Shown piece by piece: positions 13,022 through 57,657 of a stretch of 64,000 nt of DNA. This stretch comes from Sphingomonas sp. 28-63-12 (lineage in GTDB: Bacteria; Pseudomonadota; Alphaproteobacteria; Sphingomonadales; Sphingomonadaceae). How positions within the stretch are numbered: position 1 is the stretch's first letter; each line of letters begins with the position of its first letter. Where the stretch lies: the NCBI GenBank assembly GCA_002281535.1, contig NCGD01000002.1, positions 1 through 64,000 of the forward strand. Reading direction: 5' to 3'. Made by a program: the position numbers and the translations under genes. The notes below the pieces were generated by a model. The model ran no database searches. It was not told the DNA's origin and saw only the letters and a list, made by a program, of their open reading frames with translations.

Positions 13022-13039
13022 AATTTGTCCGGACATATT
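13022..13039. promoter_or_regulatory. GntR-type operator, site 1 (before DUF1838 gene)
   Basis: AATTTGTCCGGACATATT, 16 of 18 bases matching the perfect palindrome found at 51726-51743. It lies 57 bases before the ATG of the DUF1838-like gene. See the regulator at 31617-32378. Confidence 0.72.
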
Positions 13040-13096
13040 TTCTTTCCGATGTTTATCCGCTATGCCGGGATTAATGCGGATGCCGGGGAGAGAAAA

Positions 13097-13990
13097 ATGA
13101 GAATCACGATGTCGGTGGCGGCTGCCATCATCACGATTGCCACAGGATCGGCAGCGAATGCGCGCCAGCTCGATCCGGCCATTCCCGCCGATGCCGTCGA
13201 GATCATGAAGCGCACCCAGTGCGGTGCCAAGGACAATGAGCCGGCGGTCTATTACTGGTCCGGCCGGATCTATTCACGGATCGAGGGCGAGCCCGACCGG
13301 CTGCTGTTCGGTGGCGAGGGGATGAATATCCGCCAATGCGTAGCCGTAACCGATCCCAAGCGCGGCACCGGCTTTCGCCAGGTGAGCCGCGAGGTGATGT
13401 TCTTCACCGACCCCAAGACGGGCGCGATCGTTCGGACGTGGGACAATCCCTGGACCGGCGAGAAGGTGGAGGTGATGCACATCGCCAATGATCCGGTAAA
13501 CAGTCGCCCGAGCTACCCGATGGGAACAGACGGCAGGCCCTATTCGATCAAGATGCAACGCATGGGCCAATGGGTCCAGATGCCGGTCGAAGTGCCGCTC
13601 TTCTATGAAAATCCGCTGGGCGGTGACTATCAGGATTTCGTCGGCAGCAAATATCACGCGATGGAGATTTTCGATTTCGCAGCGCGTGCCGATGAATTGC
13701 TCGATACCAGGAATGCCACCGCCTATCCGTCAGTCTCCTGGGTTCGGATTTCGGACTGGATGCCGTGGATGAAGATGCGCGGCCGGCACGGAAACATCGT
13801 CTTCAATGCGATGGGAGCAAAGTTGAAAAGCTATGCCGAGTTGCCCGCGGTGATCCGTGATGAGATTGCCGCGCGCTACCCGGCATATATCGCGCCGCCG
13901 CCAGTGGACGATACCCGCCCTAACGAGACGACCTGGACGGTGTTCAAGAAGCGGCTGGATGCTGCCAAAAAGGGACCGGCCACTAACTAG
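13097..13990 (+). CDS. Exported DUF1838-like protein
   Basis: A 297-residue protein with an N-terminal signal peptide (MRITMSVAAAIITIATGSAA, cleavage near NARQ). The mature part has features I associate with DUF1838: YYWSGRIYSRIEGE near residue 55, FGGEGMNIRQC near residue 75 and many Trp/Tyr residues. Family function is unknown. Being exported and preceded by a GntR operator, it may act on the substrate in the periplasm. The ATG at 13097 with GGGGAG upstream was chosen over a TTG inside the operator. A strong bidirectional terminator follows. Confidence 0.72.
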   Translation: MRITMSVAAAIITIATGSAANARQLDPAIPADAVEIMKRTQCGAKDNEPAVYYWSGRIYSRIEGEPDRLLFGGEGMNIRQCVAVTDPKRGTGFRQVSREVMFFTDPKTGAIVRTWDNPWTGEKVEVMHIANDPVNSRPSYPMGTDGRPYSIKMQRMGQWVQMPVEVPLFYENPLGGDYQDFVGSKYHAMEIFDFAARADELLDTRNATAYPSVSWVRISDWMPWMKMRGRHGNIVFNAMGAKLKSYAELPAVIRDEIAARYPAYIAPPPVDDTRPNETTWTVFKKRLDAAKKGPATN

Positions 13991-14018
13991 ATCGAGTGCT
14001 TCAACCAGCATGCCCAAC

Positions 14019-14074: not shown

Positions 14075-16531
14075 TCAGAAATTATAGCCGAGCGAAACGC
14101 CGAACTGCCGACGCTGCGCGCCCTGGACGAGCGGGGCCGACACGAAATAATTGGTCGTATCGAAGAAGCGGACGCCGGCGACTGGCGATGCGTCGTCAAA
14201 TGCGTTGTCGACGAAGAACTGCAAGCGCCAGGCACCGTTCGTTGCCGTCACGCGGAAATCGACCGTCGCCTTGTCACCGAAATTTTGAAGATTGTCGGCA
14301 CGCACAAAGGTTTTGGACTGGTAGACGATGTCCGCACGCGCCTGAAGCTTGATGTCACCCGTTGTCGGCACATCGATGCGCGGGCTGATCAGGAACTTGT
14401 GTTCGGGCACATAGGGCAACGACTTGCCGTTGAAATTGATCGGCGGCAAGCCGGCCAGCGTTAGGTTCTGGGCCAGCGAATCATCGACAAATCTGTCATA
14501 CCGCGCATGCGTCCACGCATAGTTCCCGACGACTGAGAAGACATCGTTGAAACGATAGGCCGTTTCGACTTCGATGCCATAGATCGTCGCCGCCGCGACG
14601 TTGCAGGTATAGGATCGGTTGGTGGAGGAGCCGCCAGCGGAAACCGGGTTCTGGCAAACCGCCTGCTGGTTGTTCCAATCGGTATAATAGCCAGCGACGT
14701 TGAACAGCAACTGCCGATCAAACAGCCGTGATTTCAGGCCGACTTCATAATTGTTGGTCGTTTCCGGCTGATAGGCGCGCTGATTGGCAAAGACGTTGAG
14801 CCCGGTGTTGAAGCCCCCGGTCTTCGCGCCACGGGCATAGCTGGCATAGACCAGCGCATCGGGATCGACCTTGTAGCTGAGGATCGCGCGCGGCGTGACG
14901 AAGCTGAAGGTCTGGTTCGTTGCGGTGAACGCTGTCGCCGCAGCAGTGCCGGCCGGGCTGGGGAACACCGTGACCGCGCCGGTAAAGGGGTTCGCGGCGG
15001 AGGTGACGATCGGCGACGGCGTCGCGCCACAGCCAACCACTCCCGCCGGCGGTGTCGCCGATGGGTTGGCATAATAGGTCGGGCATTGTGCGAAGCTCTG
15101 GCTTTCGCTTTCATAGCGTACTTCGCCACTGATCGTGAACTTGTCAGTGGCATGCCAGGAGGCCGAACCAAACCCCGAATAGCTCTTGGTCGTCAGCCGG
15201 ACCAGAGGATAGGAATAATTGGGATTGAACGCCGAATAGGCAGTGGGCCCGGCCGTTGTGGTAGGGCTGAAGCCCCGATCGACGCCAACATTGATGTTGT
15301 CGTAATAATAGAAGCCGACCAGCCAATCGATCACCTGCTTACCGGATGAGGCCAGCCGGATTTCCTGGCTTATATCGCGGTAATAGCCCTTGTTGCTCGA
15401 TAGGCTGAAGGCGCTCGAGCCGATCGGAATGGCAGGCGCGAACGGGAAGCCGAAGCTGGGGCAGCCGCCAGTGCGATCGCAGATCGTGTTATCGCCGTCG
15501 AACGTATATTCGGCATTGCGCTTGGCATAGGCGGTGATCGACGTCAGCGTGACCGGCCCGAAATCATATTCGAGATCGGCGCTGCCGCGAATCGATTCCT
15601 CGCGATCACCATAGCTGCCGCCAGGCAAGCCCGGCGAGCTGCGCGTGTTGACGGTCACGCCGTTGCGCGGGATCGCCGGCACTTCGCCGATATAGAGCAG
15701 ATTGCGCGGCTGGGTTGCCGATCCGCCGGCCGGTATGCCCGGGGCGGCATTGGTACGGACGATGCTCGATGGCGGCTGGCCATTATTCTCCTTGGAATAG
15801 CTGAACCGCAGTGTCGCGGTGAAGGCCTCGTCCGGCTTCCATTCAAGCGTACCGATGCCACCATAATTCTGCGCGAAATCAACCTTCCCGCCATCGATCG
15901 AGCTGGTATAGAAGCCATCGAACTGCCGAAAAAAGCCGCCCACGCGAAAGCGCAATGTGTCGCTAAGCGGACCACTGATGCTGGCGACGCCCTTGACCAG
16001 GCCGTTGGTGCCGCCCGTAAATTCGGCATTGGCGGTAAGATCGGCGGTCGGGCGCTTCGTCACATAGTTGATCGCGCCGGCAAAGGTATTGCGGCCATAG
16101 AGCGCCGATTGCGGCCCCTTCACCACTTCGACCCGCTCAAGATCGTTGAGCTCGAGATCGACGCCCGCCTTGCCCGACAAATAGATACCATCAAGGAAAA
16201 CGCCGACATTGAGCTGGCCAAAGGTCTGCGCCGCGCCACGGATGATCGGCAGCTGATTCTGCGCGCCGAACAGGGGCGTGAAATTGAGGCCAGGCGTCAG
16301 CTTGGCAATGTCCGACAGGCGCTCAATCTTGGCCGCTTTGATATCGTCTGCGGTAAAAGCAGTGATAGCGACCGGGACGTCCTGGAGCTTCTCCGACGTC
16401 TTGCGCGCGGTGACGATGATATCCTGCGGCGCATTGGCCGCCTTGTCATCAGCAGGTGCCGCCTGCGCAAAGGCGGCCGCCGGGCTCAAGATGGTTGCGG
16501 CCATCAGGCCTGCACGAAAAACAAGACGCAT
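14075..16531 (-). CDS. TonB-dependent outer-membrane receptor
   Basis: An 818-residue receptor with signal peptide (cleavage after AFAQ near residue 23), TonB-box-like DIIVTARKT, plug domain (VKGPQSALYGRNTFAGAI near residue 140) and a beta-barrel ending VSLGYNF. It is divergent from the nitrilase-fold gene at 16669, and a GntR-type operator (16583-16600) lies between the two starts, so it is probably the uptake gate for the substrate of the 44-kb regulon. It is distinct in sequence from the receptors at 7641 and 38068. Confidence 0.93.
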   Translation of the reverse strand: MRLVFRAGLMAATILSPAAAFAQAAPADDKAANAPQDIIVTARKTSEKLQDVPVAITAFTADDIKAAKIERLSDIAKLTPGLNFTPLFGAQNQLPIIRGAAQTFGQLNVGVFLDGIYLSGKAGVDLELNDLERVEVVKGPQSALYGRNTFAGAINYVTKRPTADLTANAEFTGGTNGLVKGVASISGPLSDTLRFRVGGFFRQFDGFYTSSIDGGKVDFAQNYGGIGTLEWKPDEAFTATLRFSYSKENNGQPPSSIVRTNAAPGIPAGGSATQPRNLLYIGEVPAIPRNGVTVNTRSSPGLPGGSYGDREESIRGSADLEYDFGPVTLTSITAYAKRNAEYTFDGDNTICDRTGGCPSFGFPFAPAIPIGSSAFSLSSNKGYYRDISQEIRLASSGKQVIDWLVGFYYYDNINVGVDRGFSPTTTAGPTAYSAFNPNYSYPLVRLTTKSYSGFGSASWHATDKFTISGEVRYESESQSFAQCPTYYANPSATPPAGVVGCGATPSPIVTSAANPFTGAVTVFPSPAGTAAATAFTATNQTFSFVTPRAILSYKVDPDALVYASYARGAKTGGFNTGLNVFANQRAYQPETTNNYEVGLKSRLFDRQLLFNVAGYYTDWNNQQAVCQNPVSAGGSSTNRSYTCNVAAATIYGIEVETAYRFNDVFSVVGNYAWTHARYDRFVDDSLAQNLTLAGLPPINFNGKSLPYVPEHKFLISPRIDVPTTGDIKLQARADIVYQSKTFVRADNLQNFGDKATVDFRVTATNGAWRLQFFVDNAFDDASPVAGVRFFDTTNYFVSAPLVQGAQRRQFGVSLGYNF

Positions 16532-16582: not shown

Positions 16583-16600
16583 AATTTGTCCAGACAAATT
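16583..16600. promoter_or_regulatory. GntR-type operator, site 2 (divergent promoter)
   Basis: AATTTGTCCAGACAAATT, one central base different from the perfect palindrome. It lies 51 bases from the TonB receptor start (16531) and 68 bases from the nitrilase-fold gene start (16669). Confidence 0.75.
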
Positions 16601-16668
16601 ATCACAGACGTGCAACGAGTCGAGATGTGTTGCCAGAGCGACACACTGAACAAGGGGAGCGTGCGGAT

Positions 16669-17832
16669 ATGGACGAGGCCAACCAGCTGTCGCGTCGATC
16701 ATTACTGGCAACAGGACTGGCAACGGGGGCCGGTCTGGCCGCCGGCATGGCCGCCACGCCTGTCCCTGCCACGGCGCGCGTGGCATCTGCATCAGCAGCT
16801 CCACCGCTTTCGCTGACCACCGATGGCCGCTATGTCACAGTACCGCTGGCCAAAGATGCTTGGACGCTGGGCGTGGTTCAATCGCGCGTCATCGCGGTTG
16901 ATGCTGCGTCCCCGGAAAAAGGCCGCCGCGCCAATGTGCAGCATATGTGCGACTTGATCGATTATGCATCGGGCTTTTCGGGCAAGAAGGACCTGCTTTT
17001 CTTCCACGAATTTCCAATTACCGGCTATAATTACAAATGGTCGCTTGCCGAAGCGCGGCGCGTGGCGATCGAGCTGCCGGGCGAGGAGACCGAGGCGCTG
17101 GCCAAAAAGGCGCGGCAATATGGTACCTGGCTGGTGTTCGGTTCCTATGTGCGCGATCCCGCCTGGCCCGATAATCTGCTGTCGATCACCACAATCATGG
17201 ACGATCAGGGCCGCATCGTTGACCGGCACTGGAAGGCGCGCAACATCAAGGGTGTGTTCTTCGGTTTCGAGTTGTTCACGACGACAACCTATGATGTGCT
17301 CGATCGCTTCGTGGAGATGTATGGGCAGGACGCGGTGGTGCCGGTCGCCCGCACGCCGATCGGCAATCTGTCGACCAGCCAGGTTCAGCGCGAGCCCGAA
17401 CTGTTCCGCGCCATGGCGATGAAGGGCGCGGAGGTGATCCTGCGCACCGCGACCGGTGGCTTCACCCCCGCCGATATCCAGGCGACCGCGATGTATAACG
17501 GCGTCTACACCGCCATCGCGAACAATGCCGCCTCCCCCAATAACGGCCTGTATTTCGAGGATGCCGGCGGTGGCGGCAGTGCGGTGTATGACCCGCTGGG
17601 CGAGATGGTCGCGAGTGCGCCGACGGCGTTCGAAACGCTCGTCACCCACCGCATCCCGATCAAGGATTTCCGCGCGCGGCACCGCCAGCCGGTCGTCCAT
17701 AGCGAGCTGGTGATGCCGGTGTACGCGGCATACCGATCGAAATATCCGCCCGGCCTGTTCAGCAGCTACCAGCCGACCAGCATCGAGGATGCGGGCAAAT
17801 ATCTGGCCGACAAGGCGCGCTGGCCGAAATAA
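16669..17832 (+). CDS. Tat-exported nitrilase-fold protein, catalytic Cys replaced by Ser
   Basis: A 387-residue protein with a twin-arginine signal (SRRSLLATG at residues 8-16, cleavage near ATARVAS). The rest is a carbon-nitrogen hydrolase fold. Of the expected Glu-Lys-Cys triad, Glu114 (FFHEFPITGY) and Lys189 (HWKARNIKG) are present. The cysteine normally six residues before the conserved Pro-Glu is Ser237 (IGNLSTSQVQREPE). It may have altered or no hydrolase activity. It is the first gene of an operon running to 22741, divergent from a TonB receptor and behind operator site 2. Periplasmic location inferred from the Tat signal. Confidence 0.8.
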   Translation: MDEANQLSRRSLLATGLATGAGLAAGMAATPVPATARVASASAAPPLSLTTDGRYVTVPLAKDAWTLGVVQSRVIAVDAASPEKGRRANVQHMCDLIDYASGFSGKKDLLFFHEFPITGYNYKWSLAEARRVAIELPGEETEALAKKARQYGTWLVFGSYVRDPAWPDNLLSITTIMDDQGRIVDRHWKARNIKGVFFGFELFTTTTYDVLDRFVEMYGQDAVVPVARTPIGNLSTSQVQREPELFRAMAMKGAEVILRTATGGFTPADIQATAMYNGVYTAIANNAASPNNGLYFEDAGGGGSAVYDPLGEMVASAPTAFETLVTHRIPIKDFRARHRQPVVHSELVMPVYAAYRSKYPPGLFSSYQPTSIEDAGKYLADKARWPK

Positions 17833-17856
17833 TCAAGCGTTTGAGGGAGATCGCCA

Positions 17857-18177
17857 ATGCCTGCCTATATGATCGTCACCGCCAAGATCGCCGACCGGGA
17901 TGCCTTCATCAACGGCTACGGCATGGCAGCGGGCAAGCTGGTCGAGCAGTTCGGGGGCAAATATGTGCTGCGCGCGCCGGGCGCGACGCTGCTCGAGGGC
18001 GATTTCGGCGCCAATGGGCTTGAGGGGGGCGCGTCGATGGTGATTTCCGAATGGCGCGACAGGGCGGCGGCCGAGGCGTTCTGGAACTCGCCCGATTATG
18101 CCGAGGTGAAAAAGCTGCGCGCGGGTATCGCCGATTGCCAGGTGCTGCTGATCGAGTCAGCCAAAATCAATGGCTGA
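17857..18177 (+). CDS. DUF1330 protein
   Basis: A 106-residue protein of the DUF1330 family, a dimeric ferredoxin-like alpha/beta-barrel fold: opening AYMIVTAKIADRDAFINGY, central GGKYVLRAP, and late SEWRDRAAAEAFWNSPDY. No catalytic role is established for the family; members often sit in catabolic operons. GAGGGAG precedes the ATG. It overlaps the next gene by 8 bases. Confidence 0.88.
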   Translation: MPAYMIVTAKIADRDAFINGYGMAAGKLVEQFGGKYVLRAPGATLLEGDFGANGLEGGASMVISEWRDRAAAEAFWNSPDYAEVKKLRAGIADCQVLLIESAKING

Positions 18178-18640
18178 ACCAGACATCATCAAGCGCACGA
18201 CGCTCATCGTGCGCGATGCGGAGCGTGGTGCCGTATGGTATGAACAGGTGTTCGGCATGACGCGGGTAATGGACACGCCCTTCACGCTTTCCGGCACGCA
18301 ACTGGCGGCGGGAAAGAAGGGTGACCAGACAAGGTTGATTATCCTGAAATGTGCCGACGACCTGATCGGCATGATCGGTCTCCTGCAGTGGGTCGATCCG
18401 CCGTTGGAGGCACCGCCGGAGCTACCGACGCGCATCGCCTTTGGGGCGCCGATCTTTGTCGTCGCCGCGCGCGATTGCCGAGCAACCACGGAACGCGCGC
18501 GCGCTTCCGGCAGCCGAATCCACAGCGAACCGCGCGACTGGACGGTCACCGGCTTCGACGGCAAAGAACAGGCAATGGTGGGGGCGAGCTTTTTCGACCC
18601 AGACGGCTATTTCTTCGAAGTGAACGAACGCGTTTCATGA
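18170..18640 (+). CDS. VOC-superfamily protein
   Basis: A 156-residue single VOC unit: N-terminal TTLIVRDAERGAVWYEQVFG (residues 6-25) and C-terminal FFDPDGYFFEVNERVS. The conserved late Glu is present, but a clear first metal His is not, so it may be a non-metal or atypical VOC isomerase/lyase. It overlaps both neighbours (8 and 4 bases), indicating tight coupling within the 16669-22741 operon. Confidence 0.8.
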   Translation: MAEPDIIKRTTLIVRDAERGAVWYEQVFGMTRVMDTPFTLSGTQLAAGKKGDQTRLIILKCADDLIGMIGLLQWVDPPLEAPPELPTRIAFGAPIFVVAARDCRATTERARASGSRIHSEPRDWTVTGFDGKEQAMVGASFFDPDGYFFEVNERVS

Positions 18641-19719
18641 ACGCCCTTGCGGGATTCGAGGCGCTTGCCGCCGGCCGCGCAATCGACGACGACGCCAATT
18701 ACCAATGGCGCGTGGCGCGCGCACCTGCCGGCTTGCCAACACCGGAAGATTTCGTCTGGCACGATGCTGACATCCCGCAGCCTCGGCCTGGCGAAGTGCT
18801 GCTGAAGACGCTGTATCTCGGTCTGGCGCCAGTGATGCGGATGTATATGCAAGGCGGCGGCGCGGCCGGGGAGGCAGCGTTGTACCCTGGCGACGTGATC
18901 CACGGCCGCGGCGTCGCGCAGATCATCAAATCGCGCCATCCCGATTGGCACGAAGGCGAGATCGTGCAGGGGCAGCTCGGCTGGCAGACCTACAAGGTCT
19001 CGGCCATGACGACCGGCGAGAAGATGTTCCGCTGCCGTCCGCTGGGCCTGCCAGCGATGCTGAGCTGCAAGCTCCTGGGCATGACCGGCCTGTCGGCGCA
19101 TGCCGGGCTGTTCGCCTGCGGCGAGCCGCGACAGGGAGACCGGATGATATTGTCGGGCGCAGCTGGTGGCGTCGGTACGATCGTTTCGCAATTGGCGGCG
19201 AATGTCGCCGGATGCGATGTCGTCGGCATCGCCGGCGGGGCGCGAAAATGCGCCACGATCCGCACACTCGGCTGTTCGGGCGCGATCGATTATCAGGCCG
19301 AAGATGTCGCGGTCGCCCTGGCAACCCATCGGCCCGACGGAATCGACTTGTATTTCGACAATGTCGGCGGCGATATCCTGTCGGCAGTGCTCGAGCGGCT
19401 GGCGATGCGCGCCCGGATCGTACTGTGCGGATCGATCAGCGAATATGCCGCTGACAGCGGTTATGCACTGACCAACTATACGCTCCTTCGCCGCACCGAC
19501 AGCCGAATGCAGGGCTTTTTCGTCTATAACCACCTCGATCGCTGGGACGTGGTGATGGACGAACTGGCCAGCTATATTCACGATGGACGGCTTCGCCCCG
19601 TACAGGACATCGAACAGGGCTTCGAGCGCATGCCGCTTGCCCTCGCCAAACTTTACACAGGCGGCAATATCGGCACGCAACTCTGCAGCGTGCGTGGCGA
19701 ACCGGGGGAATGGCGATGA
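18637..19719 (+). CDS. MDR-family NADP-dependent oxidoreductase (curcumin/prostaglandin reductase type)
   Basis: A 360-residue medium-chain reductase without the structural or catalytic zinc ligands. It begins with WRVARAPAGLPTPEDFVW, has GMTGLSAHAGLF, the nucleotide loop SGAAGGVGTIVSQLA and the YFDNVGGDILSAVL segment. These are typical of enzymes that reduce the C=C bond of alpha,beta-unsaturated ketones or acids. The ATG at 18637 overlaps the preceding stop (ATGA). It probably reduces an unsaturated intermediate of the pathway. Confidence 0.85.
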   Translation: MNALAGFEALAAGRAIDDDANYQWRVARAPAGLPTPEDFVWHDADIPQPRPGEVLLKTLYLGLAPVMRMYMQGGGAAGEAALYPGDVIHGRGVAQIIKSRHPDWHEGEIVQGQLGWQTYKVSAMTTGEKMFRCRPLGLPAMLSCKLLGMTGLSAHAGLFACGEPRQGDRMILSGAAGGVGTIVSQLAANVAGCDVVGIAGGARKCATIRTLGCSGAIDYQAEDVAVALATHRPDGIDLYFDNVGGDILSAVLERLAMRARIVLCGSISEYAADSGYALTNYTLLRRTDSRMQGFFVYNHLDRWDVVMDELASYIHDGRLRPVQDIEQGFERMPLALAKLYTGGNIGTQLCSVRGEPGEWR

Positions 19720-20159
19720 GCGGGGTAAGATTTCAACGCGGCAACCATGTGGTCGCAGATCTGGAGCGGGCACTGCGCTTTTATCAGGGCGTGCTGGGCT
19801 TCGATGTGACCTTCACCTTGCCGCCCAACCCGGACAGCTATTCCTACGCGGTATTCGACATCCCGCGCGCCGCCGTGATGCGGTTTTGCGTGCTATCCAC
19901 CGACACGCAGGAACGGGTGATGGCGCTGACCGAGGTGAAAGGCGTGGAGATCGCCCCCCTGCCCCATCCACGCCGTTCCGCCATAGTGCTCGAAATCGAT
20001 GATCCCGATGGGGTGATTGCGGGTGCCCGCGCGCTGGGCCTGACGGTGTATGGCGAGGAAGTGCTGAAGACCAAGGACGGCCGCATCGGCCGTGAGATCG
20101 GTATTGTCGATTTCGACGACAACCTGATCGTCATCTACAAGATTTTGGGCGACGCATGA
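19716..20159 (+). CDS. VOC-superfamily protein
   Basis: A 147-residue VOC protein: RGNHVVADLERALRFYQGVLG opens the fold (possible metal His in GNHVV), ALVLEIDD-like IVLEIDDPDGVIAG lies in the middle and the end is VDFDDNLIVIYKIL. The start at 19716 gives the ATGA overlap seen throughout this operon; an ATG six bases upstream is possible. Activity unknown, likely isomerase, lyase or dioxygenase. Confidence 0.82.
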   Translation: MSGVRFQRGNHVVADLERALRFYQGVLGFDVTFTLPPNPDSYSYAVFDIPRAAVMRFCVLSTDTQERVMALTEVKGVEIAPLPHPRRSAIVLEIDDPDGVIAGARALGLTVYGEEVLKTKDGRIGREIGIVDFDDNLIVIYKILGDA

Positions 20160-49192: not shown

Positions 49193-50103
49193 TGCTGCGC
49201 CACCCAGGCGTCGACGATCGCGCCGCCGGTGGCGGTCCACATCTCTGGCCGCTGCGTCAGATCGGCCAGCAAATCCTCCAGCGCACCGATGCGATAGGGC
49301 AGCGCCATGATATAGGGCGTCAGGTGCAGCGGCAGCATGCGTCCGCCCTGTGCCTGCGCCTCCGCCGCAAGCCAATCACACGCGTCGCGCATCTGCCGGG
49401 CATAGCTGTCGGCAGATTGCTGCTGCACCGTGATGATCTGACGGTCGCTGAGTTCATGGTTGAGCGGCAGATTGATCAGGCCGTTGGTGAAGCGATATGG
49501 CAGCTCATCATTCACCCAGTTGCACCCATAAATCAGCCCAGCCTCATGCAGCAGATCAGGCGTATTCCAGCTCTCGCTCCGCGCGATCGACAGCCAGCCG
49601 CGTGGCCGCGTGCCGCTCACCCGTTCCAGCGTATCGAGCGATGTCGCGATCAGCGCGCGCTCCTCCTCTATCGGCAGTCCGCTCGCGATCGTGCCATTCA
49701 TGTCGGTCGAATGCGCGATGATCTCATGCCCGCCCGCGACGATATCGGCGATCAGCTCGGGATAGCGATCCGCAATCGCCGCATTGGTCGCGAAAGACGC
49801 TACTGCGCCGACCTTGGCAAAGGCGTCGAGCAGCCGGTAAACACCCACCCGGTTGCCATAATCCCGGGCGGTGTAGTGGCGGTAATCGGGATAGGCGGTC
49901 TGCATATGGCCAGGCGCGCGGAAGGGCGTGTCGCTCGGCACTATCGGAAACCATTCGAGGCTAACGCACAGCCACAGCGCGACTGATTTGCCGCCGGGCC
50001 AGGTGACGGGCGAGCGGTCCTTCAGCGCTGACCATGGGTAGAGATCATGGTCATAGCCGTGACGGCGCTTGGGATAGTCGAGATAGCCGGGATCGAGCGT
50101 CAT
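49189..50103 (-). CDS. Polysaccharide-deacetylase-fold hydrolase, PuuE-like (B)
   Basis: A 304-residue NodB-fold hydrolase: WPGGKSVALWLCVSLEWFPI (motif 1 with Glu), RDYGNRVGVYRLLDAFAKVG, AHSTDMNGTIASG (motif 2 His) and late LPLHLTPYIMALPYRIGAL. It is a clear paralogue of the gene at 50100 and more distant from that at 24401. PuuE-type members open rings of allantoin or imides. The start at 50103 overlaps the upstream stop (ATGA). Confidence 0.85.
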   Translation of the reverse strand: MTLDPGYLDYPKRRHGYDHDLYPWSALKDRSPVTWPGGKSVALWLCVSLEWFPIVPSDTPFRAPGHMQTAYPDYRHYTARDYGNRVGVYRLLDAFAKVGAVASFATNAAIADRYPELIADIVAGGHEIIAHSTDMNGTIASGLPIEEERALIATSLDTLERVSGTRPRGWLSIARSESWNTPDLLHEAGLIYGCNWVNDELPYRFTNGLINLPLNHELSDRQIITVQQQSADSYARQMRDACDWLAAEAQAQGGRMLPLHLTPYIMALPYRIGALEDLLADLTQRPEMWTATGGAIVDAWVAQQ

Positions 50104-50978
50104 TGCTGCGCCCGCCACGCATCGACGATCTCGCCCGCCCGCGCGATCCAGGCGCGGCCGTCGGCGGCGATATGCTCCAGCACGCCCTCGAACGCGCCGA
50201 TCCGATGCGGCTGGCCGATCAGATAGGCGTGGAGCGGGATGCACATCACCGTGCCGGATTGCTCGCCCTCCGCCGCCAGCCGATCGAACTGACGGATCAG
50301 CGTATCGGCATAGTCGCGCGGGCTCATATTGTAGATGAAGAAGCCATAATGGTCGTTCACCTCCAGGCTGTAGGGGATCGAGGCGAGCGCGCCGTGCGCG
50401 ACTTTCACCGCCTGGACCTGATCGTCATGATAAAGATCGCAGGTGTAATCGAGGCCATAGTCGGCGATCAGGTCGAGCGTCCTCGGCGTGTGGGTCAGCG
50501 CAGGGGCGAGCCAGCCGCGGATCGTCTGTCCGGTCGCCTCGCGCACGGTGCGGATCGAATCCTCGATGATCGCGCGTTCCTGCGCCTCGTCCATGCCGTA
50601 CGCGTAGCGGGTGTTGTAAATGCCGTGGCTGAAGAATTCCCAGCCGCGCGCATGGGCGTCTGCGACCACGTCGGGGTGGTGCTGGCAGAGCGCGACCGAG
50701 AGGCTGACCGATCCGGGAAAACCGTGTTTGGTCATCGCATCGGCCATGCGCCAGTGCGAGACGCGGTTGCTATGGTCGCGGTGGCTGTAGCCGACGACGT
50801 CCGGGTGTGGCTTGCCCCAGGCCTTGCGCTGCGGGTGCGCGGGCGGGTCGATCTCATAATATTCCAGGTTAGGCGCAACCCAGACAGCGACCGTCTTGCC
50901 GCCCGGCCAGACGATCTTCGGGCGGCCGCGATAGGGGGCGAAATCATACAGGCCGGGATCAGCGGCGCCCTCCTGCAT
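50100..50978 (-). CDS. Polysaccharide-deacetylase-fold hydrolase, PuuE-like (C)
   Basis: A 292-residue paralogue of the adjacent gene: WPGGKTVAVWVAPNLEYYEI, HRDHSNRVSHWRMADAMTKHG, FFSHGIYNTRYAYGMDEAQ and IPLHAYLIGQPHRIGAFEG. The conserved His of FSHG and the late His of PLHA are likely metal or catalytic residues. Adjacent duplicates with clear divergence suggest a heteromer or two related ring substrates. ATG 50978 overlaps the amidohydrolase stop by one base; a TTG three bases earlier is unlikely. Confidence 0.85.
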   Translation of the reverse strand: MQEGAADPGLYDFAPYRGRPKIVWPGGKTVAVWVAPNLEYYEIDPPAHPQRKAWGKPHPDVVGYSHRDHSNRVSHWRMADAMTKHGFPGSVSLSVALCQHHPDVVADAHARGWEFFSHGIYNTRYAYGMDEAQERAIIEDSIRTVREATGQTIRGWLAPALTHTPRTLDLIADYGLDYTCDLYHDDQVQAVKVAHGALASIPYSLEVNDHYGFFIYNMSPRDYADTLIRQFDRLAAEGEQSGTVMCIPLHAYLIGQPHRIGAFEGVLEHIAADGRAWIARAGEIVDAWRAQQ

Positions 50979-51661
50979 CAACGCGCCTCCAGCCAGTCGA
51001 TCACCGTCTGCACCGGTTCGACATCGGCATATTTCAGCTGCAGATCGGTCAGATTGGCGAAGTGGTAGCTTTCATGCTTGTCGGCGCAGGTCTCGATTGG
51101 CACGATCGTGCGATAGCCATGGCTGAGTGCATCGACCGCCGTCGCCCGCACGCAGCCGCTGGTCGAACCGCCCGTCACCACCACCGTGTCGACCTTGTGC
51201 CAGACCAGATAGCTCGCCAGGGGCGTCTCGAAAAACGCACTCGGCATGCGCTTCGTATACTGCAGATCATCGGGATGGATCGCGCAGCGATCGTCATAGG
51301 CGTGGCGATCGCTGCCATATTTGATGTTCTGCAGCGAATCGGGGGTGTCGGTGCGCGTGCCCCACACCCCGGCATCGCCCGCATCGGCCTTATACCCCAC
51401 CCGACTCCACACCACCGGCATGCCGCGTGCGCGCGCCAGATCGCTGATGATGTTGACATAATCGATCTGGCGCGGATCGGTTTCATAGGCGGTGGCGAAC
51501 CTGTCGATCCGCGTATAGGCTTGCTGGAAATCGACATTGACGATCGCCAGCTTGCTGCCGAAGCCGAACTTCCTGCGCGCCGGGTTGGCCATCACGCCAT
51601 CAAAAATCTCGCGCGCGGTACGGCCGTCCTCAACCATCCGGGTACCCATCAGCTCGGGCAT
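50978..51661 (-). CDS. Isochorismatase-family cysteine amidohydrolase (N-carbamoylsarcosine amidase-like)
   Basis: A 227-residue isochorismatase-fold enzyme with the Asp-Lys-Cys triad: Asp44 (IVNVDFQQAY), Lys137 (YTKRMPSAFF) and Cys170 (GGSTSGCVRATAVDAL). Members hydrolyse N-carbamoyl compounds, nicotinamide or maleamate. It heads the leftward operon of ring hydrolases and ALDH. A maleamate- or carbamoyl-type amidase would fit downstream of imide or hydantoin ring opening. Operator site 6 lies 65 bases upstream. Confidence 0.9.
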   Translation of the reverse strand: MPELMGTRMVEDGRTAREIFDGVMANPARRKFGFGSKLAIVNVDFQQAYTRIDRFATAYETDPRQIDYVNIISDLARARGMPVVWSRVGYKADAGDAGVWGTRTDTPDSLQNIKYGSDRHAYDDRCAIHPDDLQYTKRMPSAFFETPLASYLVWHKVDTVVVTGGSTSGCVRATAVDALSHGYRTIVPIETCADKHESYHFANLTDLQLKYADVEPVQTVIDWLEAR

Positions 51662-51725: not shown

Positions 51726-51743
51726 AATTTGTCCGGACAAATT
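51726..51743. promoter_or_regulatory. GntR-type operator, site 6 (perfect palindrome)
   Basis: AATTTGTCCGGACAAATT, a perfect 18-bp palindrome in the divergent region between the amidohydrolase (51661, leftward) and the alpha/beta hydrolase (51751, rightward). It ends seven bases before the latter's ATG. Confidence 0.82.
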
Positions 51744-51750
51744 AGGCACG

Positions 51751-53121
51751 ATGCAGATTACTCGCCATTTTGCCGATATCGGCCCCCGACGCGTGCATTA
51801 CCGGCGCTGTGGCGCTGGACCTGTATTGTTGATGGTGCACCAAAGTCCGCGCTCTTCAGCCGAATATGAAGCGCTGATGCATAACTGGGGAACGCAATTT
51901 ACCTGCATCGCCCCCGACACGCCCGGCTTCGGCCAGTCCGATCCGCTATCGGGTGACGATCCCTCCATTGAAGATTTCGCCGACGCCATCGTCGCGCTGA
52001 TCGATGCGCTGGGGATCGGACCGGTCGCTGCATACGGCTTTCATTCGGGCGGAATCATCCTGGTCACCGCGCTGAAACGCCACCCGGAAAAATTCCGCGC
52101 GCTCGCCATCGGCGGCTATGCGATCTGGACGCCGCAGGAAGTGGCGCTGTTCGGCGAACATTACCTCCCCCCCTTCCTGCCCAGCAGCTATGGCGAGCAT
52201 CTTACATGGCTATGGAACAGGATGCTCGAGCAAAGCTGGTTCTTCCCCTGGTTCGATGTACGGCCAGAGACATGGCTGTCAGGCGCGCATGCCGATGTCG
52301 CGCGGGTCGATGCTGCGGTGCGCGAGATGCTCAATTCGGGCGCCGCCTACCGGGCCGGCTATGGCGCTGTGCTGCGCGCGCCACGCGATATTCCGCCGGT
52401 GGATGCGGTGACGCCGCCGGTGCTGATCACCGCCTATGACGGCGATCCGCTGCAGGCGCATATCGACCGGCTCGGCGCGATGCCCAAGGGCTGGGCAGCG
52501 GCGAAGGTCGCCTGTCCCGCCGAACACCACGCCGCAAGCCTCGCCTTTCTGAAGCAGCATGCAAGCGGTGACGCGCCACCGGCACGGGGTGCCGAAGACG
52601 AGGGATTTGTGGCGATCACCACCGATCACTTCGCCGGCCTGATCCATTGGCGCGGGCGCAAGGGCGGCGCAGTGATCCTCCATCCGCCCGGCAGCGCCGC
52701 CGACCTGACCGACCCCGGCGACAGCGCGGCGATCGACCTGCCCGGCCACGGCCTGTCCGACGCTTGGCCAAGCGAGCCGCCGGAAAGCTGGCCCGCGTGG
52801 CAGCAAGTCATCGATGCCGCTGCCGAAGCGCTCGGCGCGACCAGCGTGATCCTGCCAGCCGTGCCCCCAGGGAATCCCGAACTGCTGTTCCCCGATCTCA
52901 CCCCGGATCGCTTCGGCAGCTATCTCACCCGCGCCTGGGCGATCGTGCGGGCGCGGCATTTCTTTGATCCATGGTATGAAGCCAATGCGGCCCATGCGCG
53001 CCACTTTGATTTGACCGAAATCAACGCCGATATGCTGGCACGCGAACATCGTGCCCTGATCCGGGCGACCGCCGCCCGCCCCTATCTGATCGCCCTGCGA
53101 TCGCGCGAAGGAGAAAGCTGA
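51751..53121 (+). CDS. Tandem alpha/beta hydrolase, second domain degenerate
   Basis: A 456-residue protein. Residues ~1-265 form a complete alpha/beta hydrolase: VHQSPRSSAEY, APDTPGFGQSDPL and nucleophile Ser in AAYGFHSGGIIL, an F-x-S-x-G elbow instead of G-x-S-x-G, then late CPAEHHAAS. Residues ~290-456 repeat the fold start (VILHPPGSAADL, AIDLPGHGLSDAWP) but the elbow reads VILPAVPPGN with no nucleophile. It is first in the operon leading to leuCD, HMG-CoA lyase and CoA-transferase. The second domain may be structural or a lid. Confidence 0.83.
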   Translation: MQITRHFADIGPRRVHYRRCGAGPVLLMVHQSPRSSAEYEALMHNWGTQFTCIAPDTPGFGQSDPLSGDDPSIEDFADAIVALIDALGIGPVAAYGFHSGGIILVTALKRHPEKFRALAIGGYAIWTPQEVALFGEHYLPPFLPSSYGEHLTWLWNRMLEQSWFFPWFDVRPETWLSGAHADVARVDAAVREMLNSGAAYRAGYGAVLRAPRDIPPVDAVTPPVLITAYDGDPLQAHIDRLGAMPKGWAAAKVACPAEHHAASLAFLKQHASGDAPPARGAEDEGFVAITTDHFAGLIHWRGRKGGAVILHPPGSAADLTDPGDSAAIDLPGHGLSDAWPSEPPESWPAWQQVIDAAAEALGATSVILPAVPPGNPELLFPDLTPDRFGSYLTRAWAIVRARHFFDPWYEANAAHARHFDLTEINADMLAREHRALIRATAARPYLIALRSREGES

Positions 53122-53624
53122 TGGGAATCCGTGAAGACATGCCGGTGCTGGCCCGCCATGAGGGCGTGTGGGACGGCACCTATACCTATTACAACGCGGC
53201 CGGCGTGAAGATCGACGAACATGCGTCACGGCTCTTCTGCCGGTTTCTCGATGATAATGCGGAAACGCCCTATCACCAGACCAACCATTACACCTGGCCC
53301 GACGGCCGCACCGAAATCCGCGACTTTCCCGCCGCCTATCACGACAAGCGCGTCTGGTGGGACAATGATCTGATCATCGGCTCAGCCTGGGAAGTGGGTG
53401 AGGACGAGCATCACCGCGCGGTGATGCTCTATTGGCAACGCACCGGCGACCCATCGCTCTATCTCTATGAAATGATCCAGATTGCCGATCACGGCAACAG
53501 CCGCTGCCGTACCTGGCACTGGATCCGCAATGGCGAACTCGAAACGCGCACCGCGATCCAGGAAACCTTGGTATCGCGCGACTGGCGCGCACTCGAAGCC
53601 GAGATGGAGGCCGCCGCTGGCTGA
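53121..53624 (+). CDS. DUF3598-like calycin-fold protein (B)
   Basis: A 167-residue paralogue of the gene at 47328, with MPVLARHEGVWDGTYTYYNA, TNHYTWPDGRTEIRDFPAAY, WWDNDLIIGSAWEVG and CRTWHWIRNGELETRTAI. Both copies open leftward or rightward operons rich in hydrolases. Its ATG overlaps the preceding stop (TGATG), and its last eight bases overlap the CTG start of leuC. Confidence 0.75.
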   Translation: MGIREDMPVLARHEGVWDGTYTYYNAAGVKIDEHASRLFCRFLDDNAETPYHQTNHYTWPDGRTEIRDFPAAYHDKRVWWDNDLIIGSAWEVGEDEHHRAVMLYWQRTGDPSLYLYEMIQIADHGNSRCRTWHWIRNGELETRTAIQETLVSRDWRALEAEMEAAAG

Positions 53625-55032
53625 GCCGCGCACCCTGTTCGCCAAGCTGTGGGACGCGCATATCGTCGCCTCTTTAGCGCCGGGCGAGGATCTGATCGCG
53701 ATTGACCGGGTGTTCCTCCACGAACGCACCGGATCGGTCGCGCTCCGGTCGCTCGCGGCGGCGGGGCGGCCGGTGCGCGATCCGGCGCGGGTATTCGCGG
53801 TCACCGACCATATCGTCGATACGCTGCCGGGGCGGACGGGCACGCTCGTCCCCGGCGGCGATGCCTTCCTGGCCGCCACGCGCGAGGAAACCCGCGCGTC
53901 GGGCATCCGCCTGTTCGATGTGGACGACCCCGATCAGGGCATCGTCCATGTCATTTCGCCCGAACTCGGCATCGTCCTGCCCGGCGCGACGCTGGTTTGC
54001 CCCGATAGCCACACCTGCACGCAGGGCGCGTTCGGCGCGCTCGCCTGGGGGATCGGCTCGACCGAGGCGGAGCATGCGATGGCGACCGGCACGCTGCGGA
54101 TGGCGCGGCCAAAGACGATGCGCGTCACCTTCACTGGTGCGCTGCAATCGGGCGTGACCGCCAAGGACATGATCCTCACCCTGCTCGCCCGCCACGGCGC
54201 GGGTGGTGGCAAGGGATATGCGGTGGAATTTGCGGGCGACGCGGTGATGGCGCTCGACCTCGATGGCCGCCAGACGCTCTGCAACATGGCCACCGAATTC
54301 GCGGCGATGACCGGCTTCATCGCGCCTGACGATCGGGTGTTCGACTATCTGAAGGGCCGCCGTTTCGCACCATCGGGGGCGGTATGGGTGCAGGCCGTCA
54401 CCGCATGGCGCGCGCTGCACAGCGATGACGGCGCGACATTTGATCGCGACATCAGCATCGATGCCGCGACGATCGAGCCGATGGTGACCTGGGGCACCTC
54501 CCCGCAAAGCGCCGCGCCGATCAGCGCCACCGTCCCCGATCAAGCCAGCAGCGCGCTGACCTCGCAGGGCTATACGCAGGCGCTCGATTATATCGGCTTG
54601 TCGCCCGGCCAGCCGCTTGCCGGGCTGCCGATCGACGCCGCCTTTATCGGCAGCTGCACCAACGCCCGCCTCTCGGATCTCCGCCGCGCCGCGGCCATCA
54701 TACGCGGCCAGCAGGTAGCGCCGGGCGTGACGGCCATTGTCGTCCCCGGATCGATGGCGGTCCGCCGCGCTGCCGAGGCCGAGGGGATCGACCGCATCTT
54801 TATCGATGCCGGTTTCGCGTGGCGCATGTCCGGCTGCGCGATGTGCTTCTATGCCGGTGGACCGGGCTTCGCGCCGGGCACGCGTGTGATTTCCTCCACC
54901 AACCGCAATTTCGAAGGACGACAGGGCCCTGGCGTCCGCACCCATATCGCCAGCCCCGAAACCGTGGCCGCCAGCGCGATTGCAGGCGTGATCGCCGATC
55001 CGCGCATGGCCCGCGAAAGCATCGCGGCATGA
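53617..55032 (+). CDS. leuC: Isopropylmalate isomerase-type hydro-lyase, large subunit
   Basis: A 471-residue aconitase-family large subunit. [4Fe-4S] ligands are Cys347 (GSCTNARLSDL), Cys407 and Cys410 (MSGCAMCFYAGG); these numbers equal the known E. coli LeuC ligand positions if translation starts at CTG 53617, which has GGAGG seven bases upstream. No ATG, GTG or TTG in frame fits. Other landmarks: CPDSHTCTQGAFGALAWGIG and GGKGYAVEFAG. In this catabolic operon it more likely hydrates or isomerises a substituted maleate/malate, as dimethylmaleate hydratase does, than makes leucine. Confidence 0.9.
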   Translation: MAEPRTLFAKLWDAHIVASLAPGEDLIAIDRVFLHERTGSVALRSLAAAGRPVRDPARVFAVTDHIVDTLPGRTGTLVPGGDAFLAATREETRASGIRLFDVDDPDQGIVHVISPELGIVLPGATLVCPDSHTCTQGAFGALAWGIGSTEAEHAMATGTLRMARPKTMRVTFTGALQSGVTAKDMILTLLARHGAGGGKGYAVEFAGDAVMALDLDGRQTLCNMATEFAAMTGFIAPDDRVFDYLKGRRFAPSGAVWVQAVTAWRALHSDDGATFDRDISIDAATIEPMVTWGTSPQSAAPISATVPDQASSALTSQGYTQALDYIGLSPGQPLAGLPIDAAFIGSCTNARLSDLRRAAAIIRGQQVAPGVTAIVVPGSMAVRRAAEAEGIDRIFIDAGFAWRMSGCAMCFYAGGPGFAPGTRVISSTNRNFEGRQGPGVRTHIASPETVAASAIAGVIADPRMARESIAA

Positions 55033-55634
55033 CCGCCTTCCCGCCCGTTCCGCACGTCGCCGGCATCGCCGCGCCACTGCTCCGCGCGAACATCGATACC
55101 GATGCGATCATCCCCAGCCGCGAGATCAAGGGCGTCGGCAAGACCGGGCTGGCGGAGGGGCTATTCGCGGGCTGGCGCTATATCGAGGGCCGCACCCCGG
55201 ACCCCGATTTCATCCTCAACCAGCCGCGTTACGCGCATGCGCCGATCCTGCTCGGCGGTGCCAATTTCGGGTGCGGATCGAGCCGCGAGCATGCCGTCTG
55301 GGCGCTGCACGAATATGGCATCCGCGCGGTGATGGCGCCCAGCTTCGCGCCAATCTTTCAGGGGAATTGTGTGCGCAACGGGATCGTCCCGGTGGTGCTC
55401 GACGAAGGCGTGATCGCGCAGTTGGGCGAGACGGTCACCATCGATCTGCTCGCCCAGACGGTAACGTCGGGCGAAGTCACCGCCGCATTCGATATCGATG
55501 CAGAGGCCAGGGCGATGCTGGCGGAGGGGCTCGACGCGATCGACCTGACACTGAAATATGCCGCCGCCATCGACCAATTTCTCGCTGCCGACAACACAGC
55601 CCGGCCATGGATTTATCTGGAAGCAAGCACATGA
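55029..55634 (+). CDS. leuD: Isopropylmalate isomerase-type hydro-lyase, small subunit
   Basis: A 201-residue small subunit of normal length: ANIDTDAIIPSREIKGVGK, FGCGSSREHAVWALHEYGIR (substrate-binding loop) and APSFAPIFQGNCVRNGIVPV. It pairs with the large subunit just upstream (ATGA overlap). Residues in the specificity loop after DTDAIIP differ from leucine-pathway enzymes (SREIKG), consistent with another substrate. Confidence 0.92.
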   Translation: MTAFPPVPHVAGIAAPLLRANIDTDAIIPSREIKGVGKTGLAEGLFAGWRYIEGRTPDPDFILNQPRYAHAPILLGGANFGCGSSREHAVWALHEYGIRAVMAPSFAPIFQGNCVRNGIVPVVLDEGVIAQLGETVTIDLLAQTVTSGEVTAAFDIDAEARAMLAEGLDAIDLTLKYAAAIDQFLAADNTARPWIYLEAST

Positions 55635-56548
55635 CTTTCATCCTCCTCTCCGAAGTCGGCCCGCGCGACGGCCTCCAGTCGATCGATCGGGTCATGCCGC
55701 TCGCCGCCAAAAAGGCGTGGATAAAGGCAGAGGCCGACGCGGGGGTCCGCGAGATCGAAGTCGGCAGCTTCGTGCCCGCATCGCTGCTCCCGCAAATGGC
55801 CGACACCGCCGATCTGGTCGCCTATGCGCGCACCCTGCCCGGCCTCAACGTCGTCGCGCTGGTGCCCAATGCGAAGGGGGCCGCGCGCGCCGTGGAAGCA
55901 GGCGTCCACGGCATGTCGATCCCCTTTTCGATGTCGGAAACGCATTCGCTGCGCAATGTCCGCAAGGATCATCCGCAGATGATCGCGGAAATCCGCGCCG
56001 TCGCCGGAATCGCGGCGGCAGCCGGCGTGCACTTCGCGGTCAGCCTGTCGACCGCCTTTGGCTGCACGATCGAAGGCGCGGTCAGCGAGGATCAGGTCGT
56101 CCGCCTGGCCGAGGCCTCGGTCGCGGCGGGGGCGATGGAACTCAGCCTCAGCGACACCACCGGCTATGCCGATCCGGCGCAGGTCAAGCGGCTGGTGCGC
56201 AAGGTGCGCGCGGCAGTGGGCGCGGACATGCTGACCACGCTCCACCTCCACAACACCCGCGGGCTCGGCCTCGCCAATGCACTCGCCGGACTGGAGGAAG
56301 GCATCACCACCCTCGATTCCTCGCTCGGCGGGCTCGGCGGCTGCCCTTATGCGCCGGGCGCATCGGGCAATATCGTGACCGAGGACCTCGCCTTTATGCT
56401 GCACGCCATGGGCTATGAGACGGGTATCGACCTCGACAAGCTGATGGCGGTGCGCACGATCGTCGCCGAGGCCTTGCCCGGTGAACCGCTCTATGGCTTC
56501 ACTCCCGATGCCGGCCTGCCGATCGGATTGGCGGAGCGCGCGGCATGA
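55631..56548 (+). CDS. Hydroxymethylglutaryl-CoA lyase family protein
   Basis: A 305-residue DRE-TIM lyase, normal HMG-CoA lyase length. SEVGPRDGLQ holds the catalytic Arg-Asp, HLHNTRGLGLANAL carries the metal His pair, and GGLGGCPYAPGASGNIVTED contains the catalytic Cys238 in the family signature. It splits a 3-hydroxy-3-methyl-type acyl-CoA to acetyl-CoA (or propionyl-CoA) and a keto acid. Its neighbours suggest the CoA-ester comes from the family III transferase just downstream and the acid from the LeuCD-type enzyme. Confidence 0.93.
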   Translation: MTFILLSEVGPRDGLQSIDRVMPLAAKKAWIKAEADAGVREIEVGSFVPASLLPQMADTADLVAYARTLPGLNVVALVPNAKGAARAVEAGVHGMSIPFSMSETHSLRNVRKDHPQMIAEIRAVAGIAAAAGVHFAVSLSTAFGCTIEGAVSEDQVVRLAEASVAAGAMELSLSDTTGYADPAQVKRLVRKVRAAVGADMLTTLHLHNTRGLGLANALAGLEEGITTLDSSLGGLGGCPYAPGASGNIVTEDLAFMLHAMGYETGIDLDKLMAVRTIVAEALPGEPLYGFTPDAGLPIGLAERAA

Positions 56549-57657
56549 CCCATGCGACGCCGCTGGCCGGGCTGAAGGTCGTCGAGTTCACGCATATGGT
56601 GATGGGGCCGGCCGCTGGGTCGATCCTAGCCGCTCTAGGAGCCGAGGTAACGCGTGTTGAGCCTGAGGGTGGCGATCCGACGCGCAACCTAATTGGTTCA
56701 GGGTCGGGCTATTTTCCGATGTATAATCGGCACAAGGGATCGATCGCCGCAGACCTGAAATCACCCGAGGGGCTCGCCACCGCGAAGGCGCTCGCGGCCG
56801 AAGCGGATATCCTGATCGAGAATTTCCGTCCCGGCGCGCTCGACCGGCTCGGGCTGGGCTACGACGCGCTCGCCGAGATCAACCCGCGCCTCGTCTATTG
56901 CTCGCTGAAGGGCTTCCTCCCCGGCCCCTATGAAAACCGCACCGCGCTCGACGAGGTCGCGCAGATGATGGGGGGGCTTGCTTACATGACCGGGCCGCCG
57001 GGCCGGCCCTTGCGTGCAGGATCGAGCGTGATCGACGTGACCGGCGGGATGTTCGGCGTGATCGCAATTCTGGCGGCGATCGAGGAACGCCACCGCACCG
57101 GGCGCGGGCAAAAGGTACAGGCGTCGCTGTTCGAAACGACCGTCTATCTGGTGGGGCAGCATATGGCGCAAATGGCCGTCACCGGCCACGCCGCCGCGCC
57201 AATGCCCGCGCGCATCTCCGCCTGGGCGATCTACGATGTGTTCGAGACGAAGGATGATCCGGTTTTCATCGGCGTGGTGTCCGACCCGTTGTGGGAGAAG
57301 TTCTGCACGCTGTTTGCGCTCGATGAGCTGTGGTCAGACGAAAAACTGCGCCGCAACAATGATCGAGTGCTTCAGCGCGACCGAATCCTACCCGAAATCC
57401 GCACGCTAATCGGCAGCTTCACCCGCGCCGAGATCATTGCGCGCCTGGAAGGCACCGGTATCCCCTTTGCCCCAATTGCTCGCCCCGAAGACCTGTTTGC
57501 CGATCCGCATCTGCTGGCGTCGGGCGGCCTTGAGCCGGTGACCCTGCCCGACGGCAGCAAGACAGCGCTGCCCGCACTGCCGATCGAAATGGACGGCAAA
57601 CGGACCCGCAGGGCGACGATGCTGGCGCCGGTACCCCGCGCACCGCGCCGGGATTAG
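56545..57657 (+). CDS. Family III CoA-transferase
   Basis: A 370-residue class III transferase: LKVVEFTHMVMGPAAGSILA, ALGAEVTRVEPEGGDPTR, YNRHKGSIAADLKSPEG and ILIENFRPGALDRLGLGY. It is last in the operon from 51751 and overlaps the lyase gene by four bases, so the two probably act in sequence: CoA transfer, then cleavage. Homologues of this arrangement activate HMG-like or citramalate-like acids; the real acid is unknown. Confidence 0.92.
   Translation: MTHATPLAGLKVVEFTHMVMGPAAGSILAALGAEVTRVEPEGGDPTRNLIGSGSGYFPMYNRHKGSIAADLKSPEGLATAKALAAEADILIENFRPGALDRLGLGYDALAEINPRLVYCSLKGFLPGPYENRTALDEVAQMMGGLAYMTGPPGRPLRAGSSVIDVTGGMFGVIAILAAIEERHRTGRGQKVQASLFETTVYLVGQHMAQMAVTGHAAAPMPARISAWAIYDVFETKDDPVFIGVVSDPLWEKFCTLFALDELWSDEKLRRNNDRVLQRDRILPEIRTLIGSFTRAEIIARLEGTGIPFAPIARPEDLFADPHLLASGGLEPVTLPDGSKTALPALPIEMDGKRTRRATMLAPVPRAPRRD

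Follow-up and report, generated by a model that had tools for sequence, protein, structure and literature searches.

A recurrent palindrome at the operon heads of a 44-kb gene cluster in Sphingomonas sp. 28-63-12, probable operator of a GntR/HutC-type regulator

The first 64 kb of contig NCGD01000002.1 (C34) of Sphingomonas sp. 28-63-12, a genome of 3.48 Mb in 54 contigs, contain 42 genes between 13.0 and 57.7 kb, along which a palindrome recurs, AATTTGTCCGGACAAATT in its 18-bp form; the whole 64-kb stretch is referred to here as the window. One of these genes (gntR) encodes a transcriptional regulator of the GntR/HutC type. The question raised by this locus is whether the palindrome is the operator of that regulator and, if so, whether it ties all the operons into a single response, as a preliminary description of the DNA had proposed. 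The reading favoured here, to which we give a probability of about 0.86, is that a dimer of the gntR product represses the operon heads through the palindrome and controls a catabolic pathway that has not been described.

The first line of evidence is the distribution of the sites in the source genome. When up to three mismatches are allowed, the 18-mer is found at five places in the entire genome, all of them inside the window, and the reversed control at none. These are the five sites (starting at 13022, 16583, 37206, 37988 and 51726) of the preliminary description, where one had been called perfect and the others had been credited with one to four deviations: the perfect site is there and the deviations from AATTTGTCCGGACAAATT range from 0 to 2 (Table 1). 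The same scan speaks to the possibility, raised in that description as fatal to the idea, of equally good sites scattered in unrelated genes, since none is found elsewhere in this genome. Moreover, the exact 12-mer TTGTCCGGACAA occurs three times genome-wide, each time in the window, and the 8-mer core GTCCGGAC occurs there at five places, with 1.4 expected and one of 100 shuffles reaching five.

Looser forms of the palindrome were rejected as evidence. With up to one mismatch the 12-mer is found at nine places genome-wide against seven for the reversed control, and therefore has no discriminating power; with up to three mismatches, its 20 copies in the window are at chance level (18.2 expected). 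An extension of the regulon to the four one-mismatch 12-mers outside the window was likewise rejected, as each has more than three mismatches to the 18-mer and no homologue of a cluster protein was matched within 1.5 kb of them (a family search of the genes concerned was not run).

Within the window, two of the strong sites precede the DUF1838 gene and the HpcH/RipC-like operon, respectively, and the other three separate divergent neighbours: TonB receptor 1 from the nitrilase operon, the membrane protein from TonB receptor 2, and the isochorismatase operon from that of the alpha/beta hydrolase. The earlier claim that sites mark the starts of all operons thus holds for most operon heads, but not for the run from PrpD2 to the glyoxalase gene (31603 down to 22753), which has only a degenerate site and no strong 18-mer.

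The second line of evidence is the co-occurrence of sites and regulator gene. Across 298 genomes of the family, the 18-mer with up to two mismatches is present in 48 (the reversed control in five, once each) and gntR (E<=1e-40) in 39. At least two sites are carried by 36 genomes, 35 of which also have gntR; four have gntR only, one has sites only and 258 have neither (Fisher test 6e-40, with related genomes treated as independent). In the order as a whole (396 genomes, up to one mismatch), the site is found in 37. Since only three of 45 other genomes of the window's genus have it, the cluster is patchy. Outside the family, a perfect 18-mer lies at a contig end in another family of the order (G299) and is followed, 67 bp further on, by a LeuC homologue (58% identity).

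Thirdly, the position of the sites was followed through rearrangement in the window and in the clusters of ten other genomes, taken from the 36 with at least two sites; because these ten were chosen for having sites, only the placement of the sites counts as evidence. A site was considered strong with at most one core mismatch and a centre from 250 before to 30 after a gene start, and homologues had to reach 40% identity and half the length, a cut at which diverged TonB receptors drop out. Gene order varies among the 11 genomes, and the strong sites keep the same operon heads: they are found at the isochorismatase and alpha/beta hydrolase genes in 11/11, at HpcH and the membrane protein in 10/10, at DUF1838 in 10/11, at TonB receptor 2 in 8/8 and TonB receptor 1 in 2/2, at the methyltransferase gene in 7/11, at the unknown gene at 46295 in 4/10 and at DUF1330 in 2/10. 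MaoC has a strong site in one of 13 cases, namely in genome G072, where it heads the operon. All the other cluster genes, including LeuC, LeuD, HMG-CoA lyase, CaiB1-3, PuuE-like 1-3 and PrpD1, have none among 6 to 11 homologues each. For TonB0, IclR, CaiB0, CitSynC, OMP57760, IlvD, GFO and SGL, no homologue outside the window passed the cut (sites 0/1 each). Of the 82 strong sites, two fall inside a homologue of a window gene, such homologues being all that this test covers. Furthermore, the cluster of G072 is split over three loci, at about 0.85, 1.24 and 1.65 Mb, with an operon-head site at each; at one of its loci (L103), operator 2 is kept before the orthologous TonB receptor at a separate place. 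A trans-acting factor predicts that operon-head sites are kept through rearrangement and splitting, so that these observations fit a trans-acting, family-wide regulon.

Finally, the regulator and the form of the site agree with each other. The gntR product combines the GntR helix-turn-helix (PF00392, 68.2 bits) with the UTRA domain (PF07702, 68.7 bits), the architecture of the GntR/HutC subfamily (HutC, NagR/YvoA, PhnF), and is the only transcription factor found by Pfam among the 42 genes, all of which were scanned. Of 55 related gntR loci, 49 were used (L010-L058), leaving out six of 26-45% identity (L059-L064); these loci and the 11 clusters share genomes (L028 is from G153, L027 from G218). 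The stretch VSRFTVREAL of the recognition helix is nearly constant, being identical in 48 of 53 readable alignment rows, with Tyr for Phe in two, Ile for the second Val in two and Ile for the first Val in one (in the row of L039, where gntR is cut, it is unreadable). The palindrome itself, TTGT-CCGG-ACAA, has the GT-N4-AC form, and G6, T7, A12 and C13 are kept in 82/82 strong sites of the 11 genomes, which had been preselected for at most one core mismatch. GT and AC four nucleotides apart is the spacing of most HutC sites according to an excerpt of PMC4494728, where the centre of the subfamily consensus is MTAK, unlike the CCGG found here. The protein also scores below the curated cut-offs for HutC (TIGR02018, 98.1 bits against 220), PhnF and PhnR. 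The recognition residues, Ser and Phe in place of the Arg and Met of many GntR proteins, were not used as evidence of site specificity, as the numbering relies on a provisional FadR sequence.

Taken together, there is strong support for a regulon of about 42 genes on which the GntR/HutC-type protein acts in trans, because gene and sites co-occur, the sites follow the operon heads, the recognition helix is nearly constant and the site has the GT-N4-AC form; of the earlier proposal, a strong operator at every operon does not stand, being missing at PrpD2 and gntR, and repression and a single pathway for all 42 genes are its presumptive parts. Most likely, the regulator dimer occupies AATTTGTCCGGACAAATT at the operon heads and keeps them repressed, until an intermediate of the pathway would bind the UTRA domain and release it. 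Release would switch on import, through two TonB receptors and two MFS proteins, together with a pathway leading from amides or imides to CoA thioesters. The regulon would be new and its regulator of a known type, and a local catabolic cluster under its control would be in keeping with the HutC subfamily; we know of no HutC regulon with these genes.

The location of gntR deserves separate consideration. In 44 of the 49 related loci and in 11/11 clusters, the gene is inverted between a CaiB gene, with which it converges, and PrpD2, from which it diverges; of the other five loci, two (L039, L042) are truncated at a contig end but agree on the side that is present, and three have gntR elsewhere (L020, L025, L037). 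One of the latter, L020 of Sphingomonas cavernae, is a second gntR copy beside the nested one (L016), with sites at 2496, 2518 and 5445 of the locus. The gaps around the gene are tiny: 17 bp or less from stop to stop (overlaps included) in 54 of 56, and 50 bp or less from start to start also in 54 of 56, out of 60 rows. Together with the lack of a strong operator at PrpD2, these gaps suggest read-through across gntR, so that the gene and the two operon halves around it form a possible non-contiguous operon, a new observation here. Such an arrangement has been described, in the part of PMC7154746 available, for menE-menC-MW1733-ytkD-MW1731 of S. aureus, which likewise has an opposite-strand gene inside a co-oriented run and convergent ends that almost touch. 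In contrast, the inverted gene here would be the operon's own repressor, and co-transcription of the two halves is putative. It also differs from the Listeria mogR excludon, where a long repressor mRNA overlaps flagellar genes (PMC7154746, same part). Read-through from the HpcH promoter would yield an antisense RNA to gntR, and it can be predicted that, on induction, the repressor could thereby drop further.

The alternative to this particular step, that the half from PrpD2 to the glyoxalase gene has a promoter of its own at the gntR/PrpD2 junction and no non-contiguous operon exists, appears to us evenly matched with it. Synonymous-site conservation across the window and its four nearest relatives peaks at the 5' ends of gntR (0.80 against 0.51-0.78 elsewhere) and of PrpD2 (0.84 against 0.38-0.64), which indicates promoter elements at the junction and argues against read-through, but a second set of seven loci shows little conservation there. 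The core at 31594, reported earlier before the gntR gene, is present and overlaps the ATG of PrpD2 (31601-31603, minus strand, as placed), 13 bases before the TTG of gntR. Around the start of gntR, cores with up to two mismatches recur in 20 of 48 loci (shuffles, 0.14 loci on average; the 48 have 140 bases or more around the start and do not include L039) and, once near-identical loci are removed, in 15 of 32 (shuffles, 0.09). Such cores favour a junction promoter; against it, starts as close as these would place separate promoters in coding sequence, and PrpD2 has a strong operator in 0/11. A terminator scan stayed at chance level (one found, 1.4 expected) and a sigma-70 promoter scan at gntR/PrpD2 was uninformative (none found, 0.3 expected). 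The 31592 site falls into a weaker class of putative operators at the gntR start, a class supported by the recurring cores. Strong autoregulation of gntR, in turn, is not supported under the strict rule, and the expectation that the regulator controls its own gene, as GntR-type proteins often do, survives only in the form of these weaker cores.

Several observations weigh against a regulon governed by gntR as a whole. Strong sites are absent at PrpD2 and gntR (0/11 each), and Nitrilase1 has one in 1/4. Four of the 39 gntR carriers (G132, G173, G219 and G226) have fewer than two sites, and one genome (G005) has two sites without gntR. The clearest exception among the carriers, G132, which has no site, speaks for the regulon: of the cluster, the 35 kb around its gntR retain just CaiB1 and PrpD2 besides fragments of PuuE2 and ALDH, apparently the remnant of a decayed cluster with gntR and no operator (L166:11212-15285). 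In addition, six of the 49 related loci (L014, L037, L039, L041, L042 and L045) show no site in the stretch available, several of them being short contigs. Genome G072 (3.4 Mb) holds 36 exact 12-mers on two contigs (C1 and C2), of which 33 lie outside the cluster, for the most part apparently within open frames of unrelated genes (29 of 36 checked, by a crude open-frame rule). Finally, gntR and sites are linked, so that co-occurrence by itself would look the same for any other factor linked to the cluster; among the additional genes in the other clusters, 10 open reading frames were scanned and one LysR was found.

Linkage is also what speaks for the best-placed rival, in which a different DNA-binding protein, encoded elsewhere, recognizes the palindrome and gntR is a mere passenger of the cluster. 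An IclR gene near the cluster, the LysR gene in the G153 cluster and the many 12-mers outside the cluster in G072 could be read in the same direction. We nevertheless consider it unlikely: gntR is found in 35/36 genomes with at least two sites and in all 11 clusters, whereas no IclR homologue reached the cut-off in any of the ten others, the GT-N4-AC form fits HutC, and degenerate cores stand at the gntR start itself.

Slightly less likely again is that the gntR product acts as an activator, or in both directions, instead of as a simple repressor. The distances from site to start codon vary, and the sign of control is only inferred; on the other hand, at 37206 and 51726 the site stops 7-8 bp short of a start codon (starts as placed), a usual place for repression, and the related NagR blocks transcription, as stated in an extract of PMC4333415. 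That the sites are chance or repeat-like copies of an over-represented 12-mer without regulatory meaning, as the copies scattered over G072 might suggest, can be dismissed almost entirely, since all exact copies lie in the cluster in the genome studied (3) and in G142 (6), G140, a congener of G072, lacks the exact 12-mer, and the sites stand at operon heads; the G072 12-mer looks like a genome-specific, highly repeated palindrome.

As regards the pathway which the GntR/HutC-type regulator would control, the hydrolases of the cluster comprise two CN-hydrolases, one amidase, an isochorismatase-type hydrolase, whose nearest specifically named PDB chain is N-carbamoylsarcosine amidohydrolase, and three PuuE-family hydrolases. 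The latter score 246.9, 89.3 and 112.2 bits against TIGR03212, all below its cut-off of 424.6, and when two of them (PuuE-like 3 and 1) were searched against the PDB, a solved PuuE ranked first or second. The natural PuuE substrate is called a small cyclic imide in the portion of PMC3084791 consulted. Unlike in a PuuE allantoinase system, Pfam named no other purine-breakdown gene in the cluster. Further enzymes are LeuC/LeuD-like and HMG-CoA-lyase-like proteins, three CaiB transferases, an acyl-CoA dehydrogenase, a MaoC protein related to mesaconyl-CoA hydratase, a RipC-like lyase and two PrpD proteins, the nearest PDB relatives of PrpD2 being iminodisuccinate epimerase and cis-aconitate decarboxylase. 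CaiB transferases, MaoC hydratase and RipC-like lyase share one operon and recall the Rip degradation of itaconate, but the lyase remains below the cut-off of NF038242 (199.7 bits against 375) and the PrpD, amidase, PuuE-like and LeuCD/HMG-CoA-lyase steps are additional. Pfam named no classical ring-opening oxygenase among the 42 genes; glyoxalase-fold proteins, of a superfamily that includes dioxygenases, and an FAD oxidase are present.

The combination of PuuE-like hydrolases, amidases, LeuCD/PrpD, CoA-transferases and lyases suggests cyclic imides or alkylmaleates as candidate substrates, and in our reading it could form two parallel branches, each going from imide over half-amide, substituted maleate and CoA-ester to a lyase. 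Bilin-derived maleimides would be a guess at the substrate. The model of the DUF3598-like protein (mean pLDDT 92.9) is a barrel that matches BFA1, Ycf58 and the phycobiliprotein lyase CpeS (E 1.8e-6 to 1.1e-4, 12-15% identity), a match of fold only, and barrels of this fold bind many ligands. It is improbable, though conceivable, that the whole regulon serves to consume alkylmaleimide-type fragments of tetrapyrroles such as bilins. Each of two parallel branches would then combine a PuuE-like imidase and an amidase with a step of the aconitase or PrpD type, a CaiB transferase and a lyase; a CpcS-like barrel would hold the pigment, and the repressor gene would be silenced by antisense read-through of its own operon. 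The membrane protein at 37259-37933, with six or seven helices, is conserved and has its own operator in 10/10 genomes; it has no Pfam match, and its model (mean pLDDT 86.9) no PDB match at E<=0.001.

In the literature searched, by title and start of abstract and with most subscription journals outside its reach, nothing fitting the pathway, the regulon, or maleimide or bilin breakdown was found, and the exact 12-mer led to one unrelated paper on flies. The sharply defined predicted operator of a single regulator would join some 42 catabolic genes, most of which have no assigned pathway, in a common response in many sphingomonads, so that one induction experiment could reveal the substrate. 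Moreover, an inverted regulator gene inside the operon that it should control, kept family-wide, offers a natural test of antisense read-through as a metabolic switch.

Table 1. Features of the cluster between 13.0 and 57.7 kb of the window (gene starts are inferred; mismatches refer to the 18-mer unless stated otherwise)
Feature	Position	Strand	Basis and remarks
Operator 1, AATTTGTCCGGACATATT	13022..13039	no strand	1 mismatch; before DUF1838 gene (ATG 13097)
DUF1838 protein	13097..13990	+	Pfam PF08894
TonB-dependent receptor 1	14075..16531	-	Pfam
Operator 2	16583..16600	no strand	1 mismatch; divergent promoter region, TonB receptor 1 / nitrilase operon
Operon: CN-hydrolase, DUF1330, glyoxalase, ADH, glyoxalase, MFS, Zn-ADH	16627..22741	+	Pfam; last gene may be separate
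Second half of putative split operon: PrpD2, PrpD1, PaaK-like ligase, amidase, SDR, PuuE-like 1, enoyl-CoA hydratase, glyoxalase	22753..31603	-	Pfam; without strong operator
Degenerate operator, GAGTCCGGACAT	31592..31603	no strand	3 mismatches to 12-mer; over PrpD2 start codon, 13 bp before gntR
gntR, GntR/HutC-type (HTH + UTRA), inverted in operon	31617..32378	+	PF00392, PF07702; TTG start inferred
First half of putative split operon: HpcH/RipC-like lyase, MaoC, acyl-CoA dehydrogenase, CaiB2, CaiB1	32388..37197	-	Pfam, NCBIfam
Operator 3, head of HpcH operon	37206..37223	no strand	2 mismatches; weaker palindrome 14 bp off (12-mer 37223-37234, 2 mismatches)
Multi-helix membrane protein	37259..37933	-	no Pfam family; no PDB fold match at E<=0.001
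Operator 4	37988..38005	no strand	1 mismatch; divergent promoter region, membrane protein / TonB receptor 2 operon
Operon: TonB receptor 2, MFS, FAD oxidase, CN-hydrolase, methyltransferase, two "unknowns"	38068..47029	+	Pfam
Operon: isochorismatase-type hydrolase, PuuE-like 3, PuuE-like 2, aldehyde dehydrogenase, small "unknown"	47328..51661	-	Pfam, NCBIfam, PDB sequences
Operator 5, perfect 18-mer	51726..51743	no strand	0 mismatches; divergent promoter region, isochorismatase / alpha-beta-hydrolase operons
Operon: alpha/beta hydrolase (ATG inferred), DUF3598-like barrel (53121-53624), LeuC-like, LeuD-like, HMG-CoA-lyase-like, CaiB3	51751..57657	+	Pfam, NCBIfam, predicted fold of DUF3598-like

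A second palindrome 14 bp from a strong site recurs in five genomes (window 37209-37234; L098:271-302; L107:11448-11479; L112:11965-11996; cluster of G060), and further second palindromes lie 39-47 bp from a strong site in G060, G285, G092 and G153; these offset copies suggest that regulator dimers may bind in pairs.

Upstream of the cluster (10032-12946) are found the gene of the IclR regulator (10032-10844), a CoA-transferase gene and a citrate-synthase-like gene, without an operator. Downstream (58917-62972), genes for an IlvD/EDD dehydratase, a GFO/IDH/MocA oxidoreductase and an SMP-30 family protein probably belong to a sugar-acid pathway outside the regulon.

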